A DNA stretch of 37,679 nt. Origin: Erysipelotrichia bacterium (GTDB taxonomy: Bacteria > Bacillota_I > Bacilli_A > Erysipelotrichales > Erysipelotrichaceae). The notes under the pieces are model-generated. The model did no database searches and was not told the origin of the DNA. It was given only the letters and a program-made list of their open reading frames with translations. The translations under genes were made by a program, and so were the position numbers. The stretch lies in contig JAAZKG010000115.1 of assembly GCA_012799935.1 (NCBI GenBank), positions 1 to 37,679 of the forward strand, in the 5' to 3' direction. Positions 27,460 to 36,887 of this stretch are shown here, piece by piece. How positions within the stretch are numbered: position 1 is the stretch's first letter; each line of letters begins with the position of its first letter.

Positions 27460-28632
27460 TCATTCTCCATCTCCAAATGTCCAATTTCCTAAGACTTTTT
27501 CTTTCTGATTTTCTTTTAAAAACATTTTCTTAGCTTCTTTTTTAACTGTATTTGGAATATATCCACCCAATGTTCTTTTGGTATTATTTGCATCAGAAAC
27601 TCTATTTTCCATATCTTCGCAAGCTTTTAATGACATTGTTATATTGTTTTTCAATAAGATTTTCATTGTAGTTTTAAAATCCTCTAATGATTCAACAATT
27701 TCTAAAAACTTTTGCTTTTCATAATTATTTACATATTTGATTGAATGTTCTAAAAAAACGGTTTCAAAAAATGCACAAGCAACGCCATGTGGTATAGAAG
27801 CATTTTCGGTCAAAATATAACCTGCAGGATGTGGAAATCCTGTTCCACTTAAAGCTATTGCCATACCACCATACAATGATCCATAATGCTGATTGCGTCT
27901 TAATTCTTCATCATTTGGATTAAATTCTCCATCAGCTATTTTTTTCAAACATGAATATGTTAACTCCGTTCCTCTCATAGCTAAAAGATTTGATAATTCT
28001 GTAGCATTTGTACTAAACCAACTTTCGACACAATGACACAATGCATCCAATCCAGTTGCTACAGTCAATCTTATAGGCATTGTCATTGTGTATCTATAAT
28101 CATAAAATGCCACTTTCGGAAACATTTCATTAGAAACAACAACCCTCTTTATGCCATTGCTGTCTTCTGTTAAAACAATTACATTTCCAATTTCACTTCC
28201 AGTACCAGCAGTAGTGCTTATTACAGCAATGTTTAAACATTTTGTAATTGTTTTAGAATAGATTTCTTCTGGTTTTTCAAAATTCATAGAGGCAAACACT
28301 GCAGCAGCTTTTGTTCCATCTATAACTGAGCCACCGCCTACCGCTAACAAGTAATCTGCTTTATAATTTCTAGCTATCTCACCTGCTTTATACGATGTTA
28401 ACAAAGTGGGATTCTCTACTAATTCATCAAACAAAATATATTCTATATTTTCTTTTTTAAACGCTTTTTTAATATCAGTTAAAGCGCCACATAATTCTGC
28501 TGAATTTCCACTCGTTAAAATCATGCATCTTTTTCCCAAATTTGAAAAATAACCAGATTGACTAATAACACATTTTTCCCCACTTACTATTCGTGTTGGC
28601 AAATACATATCAAATAATTTCACATTTATCAC
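27460..28632 (-). CDS. Iron-containing alcohol dehydrogenase
   Basis: NAD(P)-dependent dehydrogenase of 390 residues (family III, iron type). The nucleotide-binding GGGS is in LLAVGGGSVIDGTKA (about 95-109). Metal ligands are Asp and His in GLDALCHCVES, His in SIPHGVACAFF, and a second His 14 residues later in FLEHSIKY, the FucO-like D-H-H-H set. Substrates in this family are short alcohols, diols or aldehydes. The start is uncertain: GTG at 28632 has GGTGAT just before it, and GTG at 28623 is also possible. An unusual leader hairpin precedes it. It lies in the PTS cluster, where it may interconvert a sugar-derived aldehyde and alcohol. Confidence 0.92.
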   Translation of the reverse strand: MINVKLFDMYLPTRIVSGEKCVISQSGYFSNLGKRCMILTSGNSAELCGALTDIKKAFKKENIEYILFDELVENPTLLTSYKAGEIARNYKADYLLAVGGGSVIDGTKAAAVFASMNFEKPEEIYSKTITKCLNIAVISTTAGTGSEIGNVIVLTEDSNGIKRVVVSNEMFPKVAFYDYRYTMTMPIRLTVATGLDALCHCVESWFSTNATELSNLLAMRGTELTYSCLKKIADGEFNPNDEELRRNQHYGSLYGGMAIALSGTGFPHPAGYILTENASIPHGVACAFFETVFLEHSIKYVNNYEKQKFLEIVESLEDFKTTMKILLKNNITMSLKACEDMENRVSDANNTKRTLGGYIPNTVKKEAKKMFLKENQKEKVLGNWTFGDGE

Positions 28633-28680
28633 ATATCACCAAATGTTTTATATTTGATGTTTTCCTTTCTAGCCTATTAC
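28633..28680 (-). promoter_or_regulatory. Structured leader of the dehydrogenase gene
   Basis: A strong ribosome-site-like AGAAAGGA (28663-28670) lies 30 nt before the GTG start. Between them CATCAAAT (28652-28659) and ATTTGGTG (28637-28644) form an 8-bp hairpin with one G-T pair. The GGTG of a second ribosome site is inside the right arm. The same arrangement, with near-identical sequence around it (GTAATA..TAGAAAGGA), precedes the TrpA-like gene. Confidence 0.6.
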
Positions 28681-28704
28681 TTAACCAAACATATTTTATA
28701 GACC

Positions 28705-28718
28705 ACAAACATGTTTGT
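28705..28718. promoter_or_regulatory. Perfect 14-bp palindrome before the dehydrogenase gene
   Basis: ACAAACATGTTTGT reads the same on both strands and lies about 75 nt before the start, the same distance as the ACATGT-cored palindrome before the creatininase-family gene. A candidate operator. Confidence 0.5.
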
Positions 28719-28813
28719 TCATTATTTATACTAATTATTATTCATATAGTTTTTTGATATTATCAAGTATGCCTTCAAAAATAAAAGATATCATTTATTC
28801 TATAATTAAGAAC

Positions 28814-28834
28814 GTAATAACTTCATATTATTAC
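28814..28834. repeat. Inverted repeat downstream of the phosphotriesterase-family gene
   Basis: GTAATAA and TTATTAC are perfect 7-bp arms around a 7-nt loop. On the minus strand only a weak T-rich tract follows. It could be a weak terminator or an mRNA-end hairpin. Confidence 0.45.
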
Positions 28835-28945
28835 TTTTCGCCCAAAAACAATTTAATTATTATTCAACCCACAACTTAAATTCTTTGTTTTCTACAATTA
28901 ATTTTTCAATTCAATTTAAACCTTTTTTATAATTAATTATTTATT

Positions 28946-29920
28946 TTATTTAATTGGTTCACCAGCAAAAAAACGTCGTGGATTTTCAATAATCATCATA
29001 TTTATTTGTTCTTCTGTTATTCCTCTTTGTCTTAACATTGGAAGTAGATTAACAAATAATTCGCAATAATCCCTAATAGATGTATTTCTACTTGCATCAC
29101 GTTTGAATGGTGAAAAAGAATAGGCATAATCGCTTGCCGCTCCAGCATCATGAGATAAAAAAATATGCTTTTCATAGCCTTTCCCTTTTTTTATTAAATT
29201 TGATATAATGTTCGCTAATTGTTCAGTCGTGTTTCTATGGGTAATTCCTATTTGATCAGCACCAACATATGAACCCTTATCCATAATGAACATAATATAT
29301 TCTTCATCCATACAATCAAATGTGTGCCCAATATAAATTTTATGTGGAGCTACACCAGCTTTTAAAAAAATGTTTTGCTGATAAATACCTTGTTTTAACT
29401 TACTTTGTGTATGAGTCATAATTGGGCAGCCTGTAACTAAAGATGCTTTCGCAGCAGCAAGCATCATAATTTGATTTACTTCACTTTCTCCTCTATATTT
29501 ATCAGTTGCCACTTTAATAAAACCAGCTTTATAATCTGTTCCTTCAATGCCCTCTGTTAAATCTCTTATAAAGTAACTAGCCAAACAATCCACATCTGTT
29601 CCACGCATTATCCATGGTTCTTCCATAAAATACAATCCCGTAGCACAAATAATATTTATTCCTGCACGTCTCGCCCCTTCTTGCATTGTTTGAAGGTCTC
29701 TTCCTAAATTTACAGGTGTAGGATCAACCATTGTTTTAACCCCATATTTTTTTACTGCTTCAACATTTTTAACAAACAAGTCCAAAGTTTCATCCATATC
29801 ACACCAATCTTTATAAGCATGCATCATAGACATATCCAAACTTGCAATATGTTCATGCATCAAAGTGATGCCCATTTCTTCTGTATTAATTGGACCTAAT
29901 ACACTATTAACAATTGCCAT
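28946..29920 (-). CDS. Phosphotriesterase family hydrolase (Php-like; possible phospho-lactonase)
   Basis: Zinc amidohydrolase of 324 residues from the ATG at 29920. The family includes E. coli Php and lactonases acting on sugar-lactone phosphates. Metal ligands are visible: HEH near residue 21, the carboxylated Lys in FIKVATDKYRG, His in THTQ and in IGHTFD, and Asp in LSHDAGAAS. An in-frame ATG 8 codons upstream (29944) has no ribosome site; the chosen ATG has AAAGGAT. In E. coli php lies in the yhf operon with yhfZ; here a YhfZ-like regulator is also present. Hydrolysis of a phosphorylated lactone made from the PTS sugar is my inference. Confidence 0.9.
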   Translation of the reverse strand: MAIVNSVLGPINTEEMGITLMHEHIASLDMSMMHAYKDWCDMDETLDLFVKNVEAVKKYGVKTMVDPTPVNLGRDLQTMQEGARRAGINIICATGLYFMEEPWIMRGTDVDCLASYFIRDLTEGIEGTDYKAGFIKVATDKYRGESEVNQIMMLAAAKASLVTGCPIMTHTQSKLKQGIYQQNIFLKAGVAPHKIYIGHTFDCMDEEYIMFIMDKGSYVGADQIGITHRNTTEQLANIISNLIKKGKGYEKHIFLSHDAGAASDYAYSFSPFKRDASRNTSIRDYCELFVNLLPMLRQRGITEEQINMMIIENPRRFFAGEPIK

Positions 29921-29980
29921 AATTTCATCCTTTATGATAAACATGTACTTTATCTATATATGAATATCATTTTCCTTTCT
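29921..29980 (-). promoter_or_regulatory. Leader of the phosphotriesterase-family gene with mini-ORF
   Basis: AGAAAGGA (29973-29980) is followed 2 nt later by a tiny ORF, MIFIYR (29950-29970). Downstream GATAAA and TTTATC form a 6-bp hairpin with a 7-nt loop, then AAAGGAT and the true ATG. This fits the shared leader plan of the cluster. The rest of the 29981-30214 gap holds a TATAAT near 30090 on the minus strand and no gene. Confidence 0.45.
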
Positions 29981-30214
29981 AAAATTTATATAATATAATG
30001 AAAAATCTTTTTTGTGCTTCATCTTCTTCAAAAGGAGTGAGTCAGTAAGTTTAACTATTTTGGTTCTATTCAAATTGCCAAATGCATACAATTATACTTG
30101 TAGCTATTTTCATTTCCATAACAACACCAAAAGTTAAATTTATTTCTATGAAAATTTTCTTTGAATAAATTAATTTTTTTTAATATGTTAACAATGACCT
30201 AAAAAGATTGTTTA

Positions 30215-30964
30215 TTATCTTACCAGTCCGTCAGCATATTTTTTATACTCCTTTATTGTTTTCTTTAGTTTTTCTAAATCGCCGTATTCATTAATCAGTA
30301 GACTTCCTAAAATATAGCCATCCGCACCAGATTCATAAATAATCTTTAAATCCTCTGGTTTTCTAATACCTTTTGCACAATAGATAGGGCGGTTTGGACA
30401 TTCTCTACGTAAAATAGTCACACACTCTTTTAATCTATTGGTAGTATAACCAGCTTTTAATTCACTTTCATAAGGCAGCGCTTGCATATAAATAAATCCA
30501 TTTCCATCTTTTGCTTTTGCCAATTCCTCTTCTTTCATATAATACGAAACTGAAGATTGTGTTAGCATCAAACCAGCAGATTTGTAAGAATCAATTAAAT
30601 CCTGAGTATAAGTACCCACCATGAAAATCGTGGCAATGTTGTTATTCTTAAAAAACTTGATTATATTATCAACTCCCAACGCATTTGTCATTTCCATATA
30701 TATACCAGGATAAACTTCAATATTTGGGTATTTTTTTTTGAATTTAGAAATTTCTTCTAAATGTTTTTTGTAATCAGAGCATTTTTGATAAGCTTCAATT
30801 GCCCATGGTTTTAAATGATCTTGTTCACGATATGGATTAGATACAGGAATTGACCATTCAATAGCTTCACAGCCAGCTTCAACATAGATATCTAAAATTT
30901 TTTCACTTTCTTCTATTGATGGAAAACCACTAAGAAACCAACATATCATCTTCATATTTATCAC
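30215..30964 (-). CDS. TrpA-like TIM-barrel protein, not a true tryptophan synthase alpha
   Basis: Protein of 249 residues with the fold and length of tryptophan synthase alpha. The catalytic Glu equivalent to Glu49 is kept in AIEWSIPVSNP, but the Asp60 position is Glu and the usual SDPxADGP is SNPYREQD. Phosphate-binding parts remain: KGIRKPEDL and DGYILGSLL. No trpB or other trp gene is nearby. A phosphate-bearing substrate and retro-aldol chemistry, as in TrpA, are plausible, but the substrate cannot be indole-glycerol phosphate by context. The start is GTG 30964 or ATG 30955. It follows the EIID gene and has the cluster's hairpin leader. Confidence 0.85.
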   Translation of the reverse strand: MINMKMICWFLSGFPSIEESEKILDIYVEAGCEAIEWSIPVSNPYREQDHLKPWAIEAYQKCSDYKKHLEEISKFKKKYPNIEVYPGIYMEMTNALGVDNIIKFFKNNNIATIFMVGTYTQDLIDSYKSAGLMLTQSSVSYYMKEEELAKAKDGNGFIYMQALPYESELKAGYTTNRLKECVTILRRECPNRPIYCAKGIRKPEDLKIIYESGADGYILGSLLINEYGDLEKLKKTIKEYKKYADGLVR

Positions 30965-31012
30965 ACATCATCAAATTAGTTTTTAGGTTTGATGTTCTCC
31001 TTTCTAACTTAT
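30965..31012 (-). promoter_or_regulatory. Structured leader of the TrpA-like gene
   Basis: AGAAAGGAG (30997-31005) is 32 nt before the GTG. CATCAAA (30988-30994) and TTTGATG (30969-30975) form a perfect 7-bp stem. With the hairpin folded, only about 6 nt separate the ribosome site from the GTG. Near-copy of the leader at 28633-28680. Confidence 0.6.
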
Positions 31013-31091
31013 TACAAAAATATACATATTTATAATTATATATGTTTTTAGTGTAATCAATATAATATTTTTTACAACTAGTATCTTACTT

Positions 31092-31128
31092 AATAAGCGT
31101 AGTTCTTATATTAGGAACTACGCTTATT
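31092..31128. terminator. Strong 14-bp hairpin after the PTS EIID gene
   Basis: AATAAGCGTAGTTC (31092-31105) pairs perfectly with GAACTACGCTTATT (31115-31128), 9-nt loop. It lies 5 nt past the EIID stop. The T-run is good on the plus strand but poor on the minus strand, so for the minus-strand operon it may be a partial terminator or an mRNA-protecting hairpin before the TrpA-like gene. Confidence 0.7.
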
Positions 31129-31132
31129 TTTA

Positions 31133-31960
31133 CTACATAATCCCTAATAATGTTAAAACAACTACAACTATCAACGTTCCAAAAACTAGAACTGTAGTAT
31201 TAACTCTTTTCTTACGTAAATTTAAGAATAAGAAAATTACTGCCAATTTCAGCAAACCAGGAAAAATACCATCAATTACAGACTGTAGTGATGTCATTGC
31301 ACCTTCAACCCCATAAGTGTAAGCCAAATTAACACGTACTGTGTTATAACACATTCCACCTACGACCATCAAACCTAGTATTGATGCTCCCTCTAGAATT
31401 ATATTCATTAATCCTGATTTTTGTAATCTAGTAAGAAGGTCTGTTCCCATTTCATAGCCTATATGGCCACCATAAAAACGACAGACCAGAGCAGGGATAT
31501 TGTAGACTAAAGCATAAATTAGCATGCCAATAGCCTGTCCTTCTAACATCATTGATATGCCAATTGAAGCACCGATAATACGGAAACAGCTCAAGAAAAT
31601 TGAGTCAAAGATTCCAGACATAGGTCCCATTAATGCTGCCTTTACAGAGTTAATTGTCTGCACATCAAAATCTGGATCCGTTTTATTCTGTTCTTCAAGA
31701 GCTACCATCAGTCCACCAAACCAACTATAAACTTGTGGTGTAGTGTTATACCATACTAAATGACGTTGCAATGCTTCTGAAAAGGCTTCTTTGTCGTCAC
31801 CATATATTTTCTTTAAGCAAGGTCCGACCATAAAACAGAATGGTTTATGCGTTAGTCTTTCATAGTTACAAGAACATGCACCCAATAATGAGCGCCAATT
31901 AAGAGCTGAAATTTCTTTTTTGGTTAATAATTTTTCTCTAGTTTGTACATTAGAAGTCAT
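31133..31960 (-). CDS. PTS mannose-family EIID component
   Basis: Membrane subunit of a mannose/fructose/sorbose-family phosphotransferase, 275 residues from the ATG at 31960. It opens LTKKEISALNWRSL, as EIID proteins do, and contains FCFMVGPCLKKIYGD and LMGPMSGIFDSIF (about 117-129), the conserved EIID region. One or two hydrophobic helices lie near the C-terminus. Two earlier in-frame ATGs exist, but GGAGGAGG is 6 nt before the ATG at 31960. It overlaps the EIIC stop by 11 nt, so it is coupled to EIIC. Substrate unknown. EIIA is not in the window. Confidence 0.92.
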   Translation of the reverse strand: MTSNVQTREKLLTKKEISALNWRSLLGACSCNYERLTHKPFCFMVGPCLKKIYGDDKEAFSEALQRHLVWYNTTPQVYSWFGGLMVALEEQNKTDPDFDVQTINSVKAALMGPMSGIFDSIFLSCFRIIGASIGISMMLEGQAIGMLIYALVYNIPALVCRFYGGHIGYEMGTDLLTRLQKSGLMNIILEGASILGLMVVGGMCYNTVRVNLAYTYGVEGAMTSLQSVIDGIFPGLLKLAVIFLFLNLRKKRVNTTVLVFGTLIVVVVLTLLGIM

Positions 31961-32747
31961 CTTCATCCTCCTCCGCTCCAGCAACAGCTGTAGCAACATC
32001 TCCTGTCCTTAACGATTGTGCAATTGAACCAAGGTCAAACCTCAGATATATAATAATCATTCCAAGAACTGCTATACCAATTGTTGGCATATTGAAAAAC
32101 GCAACCAAAATAAATCCCAAGAAAAAATATGGAGCATTATTCTTGTTCATAATCATTGAAATCAAAATAGCCATACCAATTGCAGGTAATACTCCACCTG
32201 CATTTGCCATACCATTCATGATTGGCTCTGGAATCTTATTGACTAATGCAACTACCGTTTCACTACCATACATCCAAGCCAAAAATACAATTAAGAATTT
32301 CAGCAGGATATTCCCAATACCTTCTAGGAACATAACTAAATATACGCCTTTATCATTTCCTTCTTCAGCATATTTATCTGCAATCTTAGAACTGAACGAG
32401 TATAATGCCCATAATATATCTTGTAGCGATGTAGTTATGACCGCAATTGGTACAGCCAAAAGCAATGCAGCATTAGTATCCAGTCCTGCAGATATTGTAA
32501 ATGCAGTCGCTAAAATACTGCTTACTCCTGCATCTGGAGCCTGATAACCACCAATAACAACGTTTCCTAAAAAGTATGATTCCAAAATAGCTCCTAAATA
32601 TAAGCCTGTTTGGAAATCACCCATAATTGCACCAGCTAATGGTGCAAGAATAATTGGCCTATTGAGATAAGGGCAACCAATCCACCAGTCAAAGTGACAA
32701 TAGCCACCAAGTAATCCCAATAAAATTGCCTGAGTCAAATGTGACAT
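31950..32747 (-). CDS. PTS mannose-family EIIC component
   Basis: Sugar-channel membrane subunit of 265 residues, mostly hydrophobic with about seven to eight helices. The family pattern PIILAPLAGAIMGDFQTGLYLGA (in part) near residues 32-54 and the GGYQAPDAGVSS loop near 66 are typical EIIC features. The tail is acidic (EEDEDDF). The ATG at 32747 has no ribosome site within 12 nt; AGAAAGGAG is 34 nt upstream with a hairpin and a mini-ORF between. A good promoter lies at 32914-32942. First gene of the EIIC-EIID pair. Confidence 0.92.
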   Translation of the reverse strand: MSHLTQAILLGLLGGYCHFDWWIGCPYLNRPIILAPLAGAIMGDFQTGLYLGAILESYFLGNVVIGGYQAPDAGVSSILATAFTISAGLDTNAALLLAVPIAVITTSLQDILWALYSFSSKIADKYAEEGNDKGVYLVMFLEGIGNILLKFLIVFLAWMYGSETVVALVNKIPEPIMNGMANAGGVLPAIGMAILISMIMNKNNAPYFFLGFILVAFFNMPTIGIAVLGMIIIYLRFDLGSIAQSLRTGDVATAVAGAEEDEDDF

Positions 32748-32790
32748 ATTAAGCTAATTGATATGATTCTTATCATATCTCTCCTTTCTA
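32735..32790 (-). promoter_or_regulatory. EIIC leader with mini-ORF and hairpin
   Basis: AGAAAGGAG (32781-32789) is followed 4 nt later by an ORF of 13 residues, MIRIISISLICHI (32735-32776), whose stop lies inside the EIIC gene, past its ATG. The first codons also form an 8-bp hairpin, GATATGAT with ATCATATC. EIIC itself has no nearby ribosome site, so leader translation or folding probably sets its expression. Confidence 0.55.
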
Positions 32791-33244
32791 GTCTTCATTA
32801 TGTTAAAACTACATATCAATTGCGAAGACTCAACAATTAATATTAAATACAAAGAACATATTTACAATATTTTTTATATATTTTTTATATATATTCTCTG
32901 TTATTCTAGTTTTAGTATAATTCATAAATTTCCTTTTGTAAAGGCATTTTTTATATATTTATATTGTATATTAAAGATATATTATAAATATATCACTTTA
33001 ATTTTTTTTAAAAAAAATTGTATTCAATATGTATGTCTAGGCTTTTTCTATTGTTCTTCTATAAGTTTTCTGTCAATTAAACTCTTATACAGAAAAAAAT
33101 ATCATTTAAATTCTATTGTTAGTTCTATTATTATTATATTTATACAAATTAATCAATCATAAAAAGTTAAAGCAAATTCTTACTGACATAATTAAAAATA
33201 TATAATTTAACCTTTATTTTCTAATTAGGTCTCTTTTTTTATAT
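32791..33244. other. Divergent AT-rich region between EIIC and the YhfZ-like regulator
   Basis: About 530 nt in all lack a credible gene. It holds the EIIC promoter and leader on one side and the regulator promoter on the other. An ORF of 120 codons on the plus strand (32800-33162) is Ile/Tyr/Phe-rich, has no ribosome site and covers the EIIC promoter, so I do not count it. Confidence 0.55.
32914..32942 (-). promoter_or_regulatory. Promoter of EIIC-EIID with dyad at the -35
   Basis: -35 TTTACA (32937-32942) and -10 TATACT (32914-32919) are 17 nt apart, each one base from consensus. The -35 is embedded in the dyad CCTTTTGTAAAGG (32932-32944, plus strand). The same dyad and promoter layout recur at 37058-37089. 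The leader is about 160 nt long. Confidence 0.7.
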
Positions 33245-33274
33245 TTTACTTTTTTTGTAAAAACAATGTATAAT
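33245..33274 (+). promoter_or_regulatory. Promoter of the YhfZ-like regulator, apparently leaderless
   Basis: -35 TTTACT (33245-33250), spacer 18, -10 TATAAT (33269-33274). A start 7 nt on is the ATG at 33281 itself. There is no ribosome site. Confidence 0.55.
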
Positions 33275-33280
33275 ACCTAT

Positions 33281-34192
33281 ATGAGTAATATTAACAATAA
33301 AAAGTCATATGTAGAAACGGAATTAGCCAAAGAATTCTTGTTATTAACACCAGGAGATAGTTTGCAATCAATTTCTTATTACGAAGAAAGATTTAATGTC
33401 TCGCGTGGCACAGTTCAAAAAGCTATTAAAGCTTTAGGTGAAAGCGGTGCAGTAAAAATTGAAACACGAGGACGAAATGGTTCTTTTATTCAAGAAATAG
33501 ATTATGCTATGGTTCAAGAATATTATGGTATTGGAACAATCATTGGTTGTTTAACAATGCCTGCTTCAATAACAACAAAAGGCTTAATAACCGCACTGTA
33601 CAATAATCTAAATATCTTAGATTGTAACATAGTTTATGCAAGAAATGCTGAAATAAGAATTAAGATGTTAAAAAAAGGGAAATGTGATTTTACTGTTTGT
33701 TCATTACACTCAGCGTTACTTTATTCAAAAAATCAAAATGATATTAAGATTCTATTTAACTTTGGCCCATACACATATACATCTGAACGTATAAAAATTT
33801 TTAGAGATTCTTCCAAAACAGATTTTGACACAACCATGAGAATAGCTTATGATTCGGAAAATGACGATTATGTTGGGTTGATGAATTTTCTGTTAGACAA
33901 CAATAAAAAATATAATCTCGTTGAAACAAAAACACAACGAATTTTAAAAGCGTTAAGAGATAATCTTGTTGATGCAGGAATGTGGTCTATTGATGATGCC
34001 AAAACAATTGATATGAATTTAGGCATTGCAAAAATAACAACCCCTGATGTCATTGATTATACCACAGCAGTACTTCTTGTTAGATCAGATGATTTCTTGA
34101 CCCAAAGTCTATTAGAGAAATATATCAATATATCAAGGGTTATTAAAACCCAGTATGAAGTGGTAAATGGATTGAGAGAACCAGATTACTAA
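33281..34192 (+). CDS. YhfZ-like GntR/HTH transcriptional regulator
   Basis: DNA-binding regulator of 303 residues from the ATG at 33281. Residues about 8-70 form a winged helix (ISYYEERFNVSRGTVQKAIK then ESGAVKIETRGRNGSFI). The rest resembles the YhfZ C-terminal domain, a periplasmic-binding-protein-like ligand domain (YGIGTIIGCLTMPAS, then CDFTVCSLHSALLY). The family is known from E. coli yhfZ, beside php, and is uncharacterised. An in-frame ATG at 33266 overlaps the -10 box, so it cannot be the start. It is divergent from EIIC and very likely controls the PTS cluster, possibly sensing the phosphorylated substrate. Confidence 0.85.
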   Translation: MSNINNKKSYVETELAKEFLLLTPGDSLQSISYYEERFNVSRGTVQKAIKALGESGAVKIETRGRNGSFIQEIDYAMVQEYYGIGTIIGCLTMPASITTKGLITALYNNLNILDCNIVYARNAEIRIKMLKKGKCDFTVCSLHSALLYSKNQNDIKILFNFGPYTYTSERIKIFRDSSKTDFDTTMRIAYDSENDDYVGLMNFLLDNNKKYNLVETKTQRILKALRDNLVDAGMWSIDDAKTIDMNLGIAKITTPDVIDYTTAVLLVRSDDFLTQSLLEKYINISRVIKTQYEVVNGLREPDY

Positions 34193-34386
34193 AACCTGAT
34201 AAATAATAAAACTATTTTTAAACTATGGACTTAAAATAATTTGAGCAATATTATAGCAAATCAGATGTTATAATAAAAGTCAGACATATATTAAAAAGGT
34301 TGCAATAAAAATAAATCTCAATCTTCCCTTTATAATAAAAACATTAAATAATTAGCCAATAAAAGGTTATTAAGGATAAAAAAAGG
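34193..34386. other. AT-rich gap after the regulator
   Basis: No ORF, no convincing terminator and no repeat. It leads into the IS21-like remnant at 34387. Confidence 0.5.
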
Positions 34387-34960
34387 CTCTTTAATTTTTG
34401 GTGGGGCTGGGGACACCCTTTAATTTTTAGTGGGGACTAAAAAGTCCTCTTTTTTTATCATGGTGGGGACAACCTTTAAGTTTTCGTGGGGATACCCTTT
34501 AAACTTTAATGGGGACACTAAAAACCTTCACAACTATTGTTTTGCTAAAGCAAAATTTAAACATGTTGAGCTGTTTATTTAAACTATATCTTCTGTTACT
34601 AAAACTTTGTTTATATTATTAAAAATTGGAAAAACAGTTATTTTTAGGAAATGAGGCACAAATTAATATGAAAATGTCTTGTATATACAGGATATACTGA
34701 TAAAAATAAGAGAATCTATTGACACTTCTAGTGTATTAATTAATTCTGGTTATTTTAAAATCAAGGATCAAATATCTTTAAAGTAAGATTTATCTTTCCT
34801 TTTATATATAATTTCATTTACTTAAATACATATAAAAAGATTAGACAATTAGAAGCAAAAAGCAGCATTTCTGTTTAGAATTACTGCTTTTTTTGATTTT
34901 CAGGTCCCCACCAAAAATTAAAGATCACTTTTTCAAGTCCCCATTAAAGTTTAAAGAGGG
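34387..34960. mobile_element. Transposase-less element with IS21-like repeated ends
   Basis: About 574 nt bounded by inward-facing copies of a motif, roughly CTCTTTAATTTTTGGTGGGG then AC. The left end has five direct copies (starting 34387, 34417, 34447, 34473, 34495). The right end has two copies in the opposite orientation (34904-34923 and 34937-34960). Multiple internal repeats at both ends are a hallmark of IS21-family elements, where the transposase binds them. The centre has no transposase or helper ATPase ORF, only a terminator hairpin (AAAAAGCAG/CTGCTTTTT, 34857-34892) and short dyads. It is best read as an internally deleted, MITE-like derivative. TAAAAAA on both flanks may be the target duplication. 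Confidence 0.6.
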
Positions 34961-34998
34961 TTAAAAAATATATAAATTTAATATTTTAGTCTCTTTTA

Positions 34999-35463
34999 TT
35001 ATATTAAATTTTTTAATGGTGTGGCTTTAGTTGTCGGAATCATTTGCAAATTAATAATGACACCCCTATCGATTAATTCTCTCATTTGAACTTTTTGTTC
35101 TTCAGATATGCAAGTTTCGTTGTTTAAATACTCATAATTTTTATTTTTATCGGTCCTTCCAATATTTATTTCTGTAATCTCAGGAACTTCTTTAGCAATT
35201 CTATATGCATCTGTTATGTTGCCAACAAGTAAAAACAAATTATATTTTTCTGTTCTGCCAGCTTTAATATCTGCAATCATATTATCTACTGTCTTAATCA
35301 CAAGTTTAACTCCAGCAGGCTTGCATAATTTCATTGCTGTAATAACAATGTCACTAATATGGTCTCCTGCAACACCTACACAATTAGTTCCTACTGCATT
35401 AACCCACGAGACTGCTACTTGTCCATGCAACAATCTGTTATCCACTCTCAAAAGTTTAATCAT
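34999..35463 (-). CDS. PTS mannose-family EIIB component
   Basis: Cytoplasmic phosphocarrier of 154 residues. The phosphorylated His is in LLRVDNRLLHGQVAVSW (His14), and the rest follows the EIIB fold with NIGRTDKNKN near 107. It should take phosphate from EIIA and give it to the sugar entering through EIIC/EIID. ATG at 35463 with AGGGAG upstream. It is cut off from EIIC/EIID by the regulator and an IS21-like remnant, and from its probable promoter by an IS110 copy. No EIIA is visible. Confidence 0.92.
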   Translation of the reverse strand: MIKLLRVDNRLLHGQVAVSWVNAVGTNCVGVAGDHISDIVITAMKLCKPAGVKLVIKTVDNMIADIKAGRTEKYNLFLLVGNITDAYRIAKEVPEITEINIGRTDKNKNYEYLNNETCISEEQKVQMRELIDRGVIINLQMIPTTKATPLKNLI

Positions 35464-35520
35464 TTTCTCCCTTGTATGATAAATACGTACCTTGTCATAC
35501 GTAAATTCATATTCCTTTCT
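35460..35520 (-). promoter_or_regulatory. EIIB leader with overlapping 16-residue mini-ORF
   Basis: AGAAAGGA (35513-35520) and, 2 nt later, an ORF MNLRMTRYVFIIQGRK (35460-35510). Its stop overlaps the EIIB ATG (ATGA), the classic layout for translational coupling. TACGTA arms (8-nt loop) form a hairpin within it. Confidence 0.5.
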
Positions 35521-35544
35521 AACCTTTGATAGAATTAAGTAGGA

Positions 35545-35717
35545 ACCATGTTTACTCTGAAATTTTAACTGTGGTTTATCTACTCGAAAGAGGTTGAGAC
35601 TATGAGTTCTTATGAATCTGTTTATGGTTGGATAGGCTTAGTGTCTTTATGTCACGCAAGGTTACAGATAAGATCGCCATAGCAGTTAGACAAGGTTTCT
35701 AGAAAGGCGGTCTTTTT
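35545..35717 (+). ncRNA. Candidate bridge-RNA region of the IS110 element
   Basis: IS110-group elements encode a structured guide (bridge) RNA in the non-coding left end, before the transposase. This stretch has the right place and length, and is more GC-rich than its surroundings, with hairpin-prone parts (for example GATCGCCATAGC near 35675). I have not folded it fully, so this is position-based inference. Confidence 0.3.
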
Positions 35718-36887
35718 ATGACTTATTTTGTTGGCATTAATATTGCCAAATTTAAACACGTTGCTTCTATCTTAGATTCATCTACTGGTGAACTGATAGT
35801 CAACTCTCTTCATTTCGATAATAATCTCAAAGGTTTTAATCTATTATTATCGAATTTATCTATGTCAAATAAAGAAGATGTTGTTATTAGCTTTGAATCT
35901 ACTGCTCACTATCATCTGGCTTTATTTAACTTCTTAAACGAGAATGATTATAGGTGTGTCTTAGTTAACCCACTTCAAATATCTCGTTTTAGAAAAATTT
36001 CTCTTCGTGATACGAAAAACGATAATGTCGATTCTCGTACCATCGCTTGTTTTTTATTACTTGAACATCAAAATATTTTAGAAGAAGAATTCTATAATAA
36101 TGAACTTAAAGAATTGTGCTCACAAAGGTTTTTCTTGATACAACACTCTTCTAAACTGAAAATTAAATTAGTCAGTTATCTAGATAGGGTGTTTCCAGAA
36201 CTAGAATCAACTATTCCTAAAGGAACTCTTCACACAATGGGACTTAGAGCTATATTAAAGAAATATCCTACAGCCAAACAGATTAGTAATGTTAGAGTTG
36301 ATCATCTTGTCAATATAGCTAAGAAAGCTTCTAAAGGAAGATATAAAGAATCTATGGTTATCAAAATCAAAGAAGCCGCTAAATCATCTATTGGTTTTTA
36401 TTCATCTGGTTTAGCTCTTAAAATAAGGCAATCCATAGAATCCCTGGAATCAATTGAAAGGCAGATTGATGAGGTTGAGTCTTTTATTAACAGCCACCAC
36501 ACTGTTATCAATTCGCCTTTACATAAGATAAAAGGTATCAACTCAATTGAAATTGCCTAAATCATGTCTGCCATTATTAGTATAAACCGTTTTAGCTCAG
36601 AAAAGAAATTAATTGCGTTTGCAGGGCTTGATCCCAAGGTAAGACAGTCTGGCACATGGGAAGCTAAATCCACCCGCATGTCTAAACGTGGCAATAGATT
36701 GCTTCGCTATACTTTGATTTGGACTGCCAACAATATGCGCAAACATCCTTCTAAAATGAAAGATTACTACAATAAGAAGCGCCTGGAAACCAAATCTCAT
36801 TACAATGCTCTGGGACACTGTGCAGCTAAACTCTGTAGATATATTTTCTTTATTCTTAATAATCCTGATGTAGAGTTCATTAACTAG
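35718..36887 (+). pseudogene. IS110-family transposase broken by an in-frame stop
   Basis: One reading frame of about 389 codons with a TAA at 36558-36560; the frame stays the same on both sides. The N-terminal part is the DEDD RuvC-like domain: VGINIAK (first Asp replaced by Asn), Glu in ISFESTAHYH, and the D-x-x-D pair in KNDNVDSRT. The C-terminal part carries the transposase_20 domain: RFSSEKKLIAFAGLDPKVRQ and SKRGNRLLRYTLI. The stop falls in the GINSIEIA-IMSAII helix that starts this domain. Ribosome site AAGGCGG is 7 nt before the ATG. Two separate lesions point to an inactive gene. Confidence 0.85.

Follow-up and report, generated by a model that had tools for sequence, protein, structure and literature searches.

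Candidate split ribosome-binding sites in five leaders of a sorbose-type PTS gene cluster from an Erysipelotrichia bacterium

In the 37,679-nt stretch analysed here from an uncultured Erysipelotrichia bacterium of the Erysipelotrichaceae (the window), five genes of one cluster possess the 9-nt extended Shine-Dalgarno sequence TAGAAAGGA 34–52 nt upstream of their start codons, and in all five leaders a predicted stem starts 1–3 nt after this site (Table 1). These leaders may represent split ("accommodated") ribosome-binding sites, a model that we consider slightly better than even (probability about 0.52). According to it, the 30S subunit would pair with TAGAAAGGA via the 3' end of its 16S rRNA, the hairpin 1–3 nt downstream would be excluded from the mRNA track by looping, leaving 12–16 exposed nucleotides instead of 34–52 to the start codon. 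We infer that these hairpins fold in vivo and that initiation requires them. The model is favored by the cluster-specific density of sites, by the predicted stems and by the fact that three of the five genes have no good near site.

The cluster encodes the EIIB and EIIC components of a sorbose-type PTS, a phosphotriesterase-family protein (PTE), a TrpA-like TIM barrel protein, an Fe-containing alcohol dehydrogenase and a YhfZ-family regulator; EIID overlaps EIIC, and genes for an M20 peptidase, a SIS protein and a creatininase adjoin the cluster. The assembly comprises 1.54 Mb in 163 contigs and is 84% complete, the window being one contig, and the gene statistics given below cover 351–547 kb of this genome. 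Directly upstream of the EIIB leader there is a transposase that resembles the IS110 family and is interrupted by an in-frame TAA (window 35718–36887; ORFs 35718–36560 and 36564–36887). At 34400–34960, a region of ~550 bp that lacks a transposase has arrays of GTGGGGAC..CCTTTAATTTTT repeats at both ends, oppositely oriented, and looks like a relic or a miniature insertion element.

Table 1. Genes, upstream sites, predicted hairpins and mini-ORFs of the cluster (window coordinates; hairpin p values are against dinucleotide shuffles)
Feature	Position	Strand	Evidence and remarks
Sorbose-type PTS EIIB	34999..35463	-	PF03830, E 3.6e-36; nearer site AAGGGAG also present
Sorbose-type PTS EIIC	31950..32747	-	PF03609, E 1.6e-65; without near Shine-Dalgarno
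TrpA-like TIM barrel	30215..30964	-	PF00290, E 4.5e-17; probable start ATG 30955
Phosphotriesterase-family protein (PTE)	28946..29944	-	PF02126, E 1.5e-56; probable start ATG 29920, near site AAAGGA
Fe-containing alcohol dehydrogenase	27460..28632	-	PF00465, E 4.7e-38; probable start GTG 28623
YhfZ-family transcription regulator (candidate cluster regulator)	33266..34192	+	PF14503, E 4.1e-37; PF14502, E 3.5e-15
TAGAAAGGA, extended Shine-Dalgarno, EIIB leader	35513..35521	-	sequence
TAGAAAGGA, EIIC leader	32782..32790	-	sequence
TAGAAAGGA, TrpA-like leader	30998..31006	-	sequence
TAGAAAGGA, PTE leader	29973..29981	-	sequence
TAGAAAGGA, dehydrogenase leader	28663..28671	-	sequence
EIIB leader predicted hairpin, ATGA..TACGTA / TACGTA..TCAT	35475..35511	-	13 pairs in two parts; -10.0 kcal/mol; p 0.004
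EIIC leader predicted hairpin, GATATGAT-AAGA-ATCATATC	32760..32779	-	perfect 8-bp stem; p 0.0075
TrpA-like leader predicted hairpin, CATCAAA / TTTGATG	30969..30994	-	7-bp stem, 12-nt loop; p 0.07 alone
PTE leader predicted imperfect hairpin, ATGATA..CAT..ATG..TATCAT	29934..29970	-	-7.0 kcal/mol; p 0.11
Dehydrogenase leader predicted hairpin, CATCAAAT / ATTTGGTG	28637..28659	-	8-bp stem, one G-U, 7-nt loop; p 0.095
EIIB mini-ORF, MNLRMTRYVFIIQGRK then stop	35460..35510	-	16 codons, stop overlaps EIIB ATG (ATGA); read from sequence
EIIC mini-ORF, MIRIISISLICHI then stop	32736..32777	-	13 codons, overlaps EIIC start; read from sequence
PTE mini-ORF, MIFIYR then stop	29950..29970	-	6 codons; read from sequence

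A preliminary description of this DNA had placed AGAAAGGA 30–60 nt before five starts, which was borne out by the distribution of this motif: five of its six copies in the window belong to the named leaders, all on the minus strand. The full-length TAGAAAGGA shows no genome-wide enrichment as a generic site, since its count (32 copies in 1.54 Mb) equals that of a reversed control (33). Five of these copies nevertheless fall within a 7-kb span, in the cluster, and the chance of finding one in each of the five leaders is ~1e-17 at the background rate; the others are mostly ordinary sites 5–12 nt before a start or lie inside coding sequences. We take TAGAAAGGA to be complementary to the very 3' end of Firmicute 16S rRNA, a pairing that rests on general knowledge because the 16S gene is absent from the assembly. 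The ordinary site-to-start spacing in this genome is about 2–13 nt, with a peak at 7–8 nt. EIIC has no good near site, and the TrpA-like and dehydrogenase genes have only 5–6-nt partial matches. EIIB and PTE each also have a near site, which counts against split sites; in these two genes, the upstream site may be dispensable and contribute affinity or stability instead.

The first start of the ORF is probably not the true start in the TrpA-like, dehydrogenase and PTE genes. The TrpA-like protein probably starts at ATG 30955, because its homologues (the C115 copy, G002 and G194) begin at MK, and the dehydrogenase at GTG 28623, from which it compares best with a homologue beginning MKNFMYHIPT; for PTE, we presume a start at ATG 29920 from general knowledge of the family. 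After looping, the distance from AGAAAGGA to the start would be 12 exposed nucleotides in EIIB, 14 in EIIC, 15 in PTE and 16 in both the TrpA-like and dehydrogenase genes. The looped distance of 6–7 nt to the GTG reported earlier for the last two genes is reproduced from the upstream GTG, where the exposed spacing is 7 nt, at the peak of the ordinary distribution, but it becomes 16 nt from the homologue-based starts. An exposed spacing of 14–16 nt is long compared with the ordinary maximum of 13 nt and argues against the split-site model.

Hairpins had initially been described only in the TrpA-like and dehydrogenase leaders. Their near-identical stems were confirmed, but hairpins are predicted in all five leaders, and the best ones, those of EIIC and EIIB, had been missed. 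The EIIC and EIIB hairpins are clearly predicted, that of the dehydrogenase moderately well, and those of the TrpA-like gene and PTE are individually weak and matched by many shuffles, another point against split sites. The five leaders combined differ from shuffles at p ~1e-4, and the support for the predicted hairpins across all of them is moderate. In minimum-energy folds of a longer context, the hairpin is kept for EIIC, EIIB, PTE and the dehydrogenase, and not for the TrpA-like gene. The TrpA-like and dehydrogenase leaders, with a common stem and loops of 12 vs 7 nt, look like copies of one another. The stems did not line up in a MAFFT alignment of eight leaders, and an Rfam search of the leaders gave no match at the gathering threshold or at E<=5.

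A strong 8-mer site at least 18 nt upstream of the start was found in seven of the 296 genes sampled (351 kb), five of them from the cluster and the others being nrnA and L092. A stem lies between the site and the start in all seven genes, and the exposed spacing after looping is 12–16 nt in each of these leaders. Within this part of the genome, the arrangement is thus not equally common before unrelated genes, yet it is not exclusive to the cluster, as nrnA demonstrates. In a search of 465 genes for a site followed by a perfect stem and a start, there were seven matches, two of which have near sites, compared with none when the site was reversed. Some candidates were rejected: the pattern matches at glmM (window 19759) and at L078 8385 have near sites or lie within the preceding gene, and conservation of the L092 hairpin says little because the hairpin falls in the last part of the coding sequence that precedes L092. 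A seemingly perfect further case, xseB (L025), was left out of the count because it adjoins the end of a contig, and relatives have xseA and a near site at this place. There, at L025 1–137 (G000:C116), unrelated sequence with an 11-bp hairpin precedes xseB at the place of xseA in sister genomes, reflecting either the contig edge or a rearrangement. Separately, two intergenic places (the centres of L029 and L032) share GGGGG-AT..ATATTTTT..AAATAGAAAGGA, a CAAG..CTTG hairpin and ATAATA..AACAAA.ATGTG, without an Rfam match.

The unrelated gene nrnA possesses the split architecture both in this genome and in the same-genus sister species G001, with 81% protein identity. Its stem is TCTATC/GATAGA here vs ATCAATAT/ATATTGAT in G001, two double changes that keep the pairing at equal total length. 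The nrnA leader has a shorter hairpin in G002 and an ordinary site in G005, and in the G001 sample no comparable gene other than nrnA lacks a near site. Related EIIB-EIIC-EIID-TrpA clusters are present in G002 (same genus) and G194, where EIIB and EIIC are preceded by ordinary sites without a hairpin. The arrangement is thus gained and lost within the genus, a pattern also reported for T4 gene 25 among relatives of T4 (PMC3014915). No orthologous cluster with the split arrangement was found by searching for TrpA-like proteins in the genus and family and for YhfZ in the class, or by two genome-contig scans; the related clusters found in these searches have ordinary leaders. The genome itself contains two TrpA-like/PTS/YhfZ clusters (window 30215–30964; L033 9270–9998), of which the second (C115, L033) has ordinary leaders and no EIIB gene immediately next to EIIC.

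The main rival to split sites is a DNA operator: the region between site and start would be a putative binding site of the cluster's own YhfZ-family regulator, its inverted repeats would mimic RNA hairpins, and repression would proceed by a transcription roadblock. We regard this explanation of the leaders as rather doubtful, although the regulator gene does sit in the cluster. Each of the five leaders contains a single copy of TTATCAYA / TRTGATAA, in either orientation relative to the genes, and 28000–36000 has no other; this orientation independence points to DNA. The best 13-mer over four leaders beats all 200 shuffled sets, and of the five genomic matches of TRTGATAAAYRYG, four lie in the cluster and the fifth inside a coding sequence. 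However, the significance of the motif is only moderate because it was fitted to these very leaders, and tests with a 10-mer and a 16-mer were weaker (16/200 and 8/200 shuffles equally good). The dyad spacing varies, and the retained stem with a differing loop in the TrpA-like and dehydrogenase leaders suits an RNA hairpin better than the DNA site of a dimer. An operator also leaves the strict TAGAAAGGA and the nrnA leaders unexplained. Furthermore, a different palindrome, RTACAA-N4-TTGTAY, is found at YhfZ-type operons in relatives and is likely the YhfZ-family operator there (L033 11970; L197 14839; L201 9848; L205 6852 and 9711; L206 10061; L207 1982; L208 10174 and 13041; L209 8798, as ATACAG-N4-CTGTAT in L209). 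None was found in the cluster promoters of the window, the nearest sequence being TACAATTATACTTGTA at 30087 with a 6-nt gap. YhfZ-regulated yhf operons contain YhfZ, YhfT, YhfU, a PTE-family gene, YhfS, YhfX and YhfW. The cluster resembles them in its YhfZ regulator and phosphotriesterase-family gene, but differs in the sorbose-type PTS, TrpA-like and alcohol dehydrogenase genes, in the separate leaders and in lacking this palindrome. Because the 13-nt motif occurs in either orientation, a DNA operator may be superimposed on the same stretch, and an operator and split sites could both be true at once.

An unlikely alternative is an mRNA stabiliser, in which a strong 5'-proximal site and a hairpin would block 5'-3' decay by RNase J, as in the cryIIIA and aprE leaders, and translation would use the near site where present. 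Such 5' stabilisers, among them the cryIIIA, aprE and ermC leaders, are established in Bacilli, where a strong Shine-Dalgarno can protect the mRNA even without a start codon (PMC3997798). Like these elements, the Firmicute leaders described here pair a strong upstream Shine-Dalgarno with a nearby hairpin; EIIB and PTE have their near sites, and a weak promoter match of EIIC would start transcription at about the site. Nevertheless, the site of a Bacillus stabiliser need not serve the coding region, whereas EIIC, the TrpA-like gene and the dehydrogenase have no other good site, so that the far site must serve translation in these genes. In addition, the promoter matches are no better than chance.

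The preliminary description also proposed that looped-out sites impose a shared post-transcriptional control. Looping is the best-supported explanation and extends to all five genes. Shared control falls short, because the stems and loops differ (only those of the TrpA-like and dehydrogenase leaders are alike), same-genus EIIB and EIIC lack the arrangement and nrnA has it. A regulon-wide translational switch, where one factor or condition (a protein, temperature or a metabolite) would open or close the looping hairpins of the five separately transcribed genes together, seems quite improbable. The tiny ORFs noted after the site in EIIC, EIIB and PTE, two of them overlapping the real start, are present as described, and that of EIIB terminates in ATGA where the EIIB gene begins, as would suit translational coupling to the downstream gene. 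This coupling is nonetheless very unlikely because of the site-to-ATG spacing: the ATG of the EIIB and PTE mini-ORFs follows AGAAAGGA by just 2 nt, which is at the far edge of the distribution of spacings. In addition, the PTE mini-ORF ends before the gene is reached, and the TrpA-like and dehydrogenase leaders have none. Least probable is an ordinary site with a tolerated insertion and a merely harmless hairpin. Because the same-genus EIIC has AGAAAGGAGG at an ordinary distance, the spacer may have lengthened in this lineage, but without selection the same change would hardly be expected in five leaders of a single cluster.

Few split ribosome-binding sites have been documented, mainly and best in phage T4. 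The proven split sites of T4 genes 38 and 25 have Shine-Dalgarno sequences 22 and 27 nt away, which RNA structure shortens to 5 and 11 nt, and the arrangement is lineage-specific, being missing from more distant relatives (PMC3014915). The cluster leaders share with them a too-distant Shine-Dalgarno, a predicted intervening structure that would shorten the gap and a lineage-specific presence. They differ in belonging to chromosomal bacterial genes in five transcription units, in the predicted reduction from 34–52 to 12–16 nt, and in the 9-nt site and the AU-rich stems.

What makes the split-site model interesting is that a rare arrangement recurs within one chromosomal cluster. If it is true, five split sites in one cluster, together with the compensatory changes in nrnA, would mean that chromosomes use split sites repeatedly. 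Start-site predictors that need a site within ~15 nt could then misplace such starts, and the amount of looped-out structure that the 30S subunit tolerates could be measured on this natural series.
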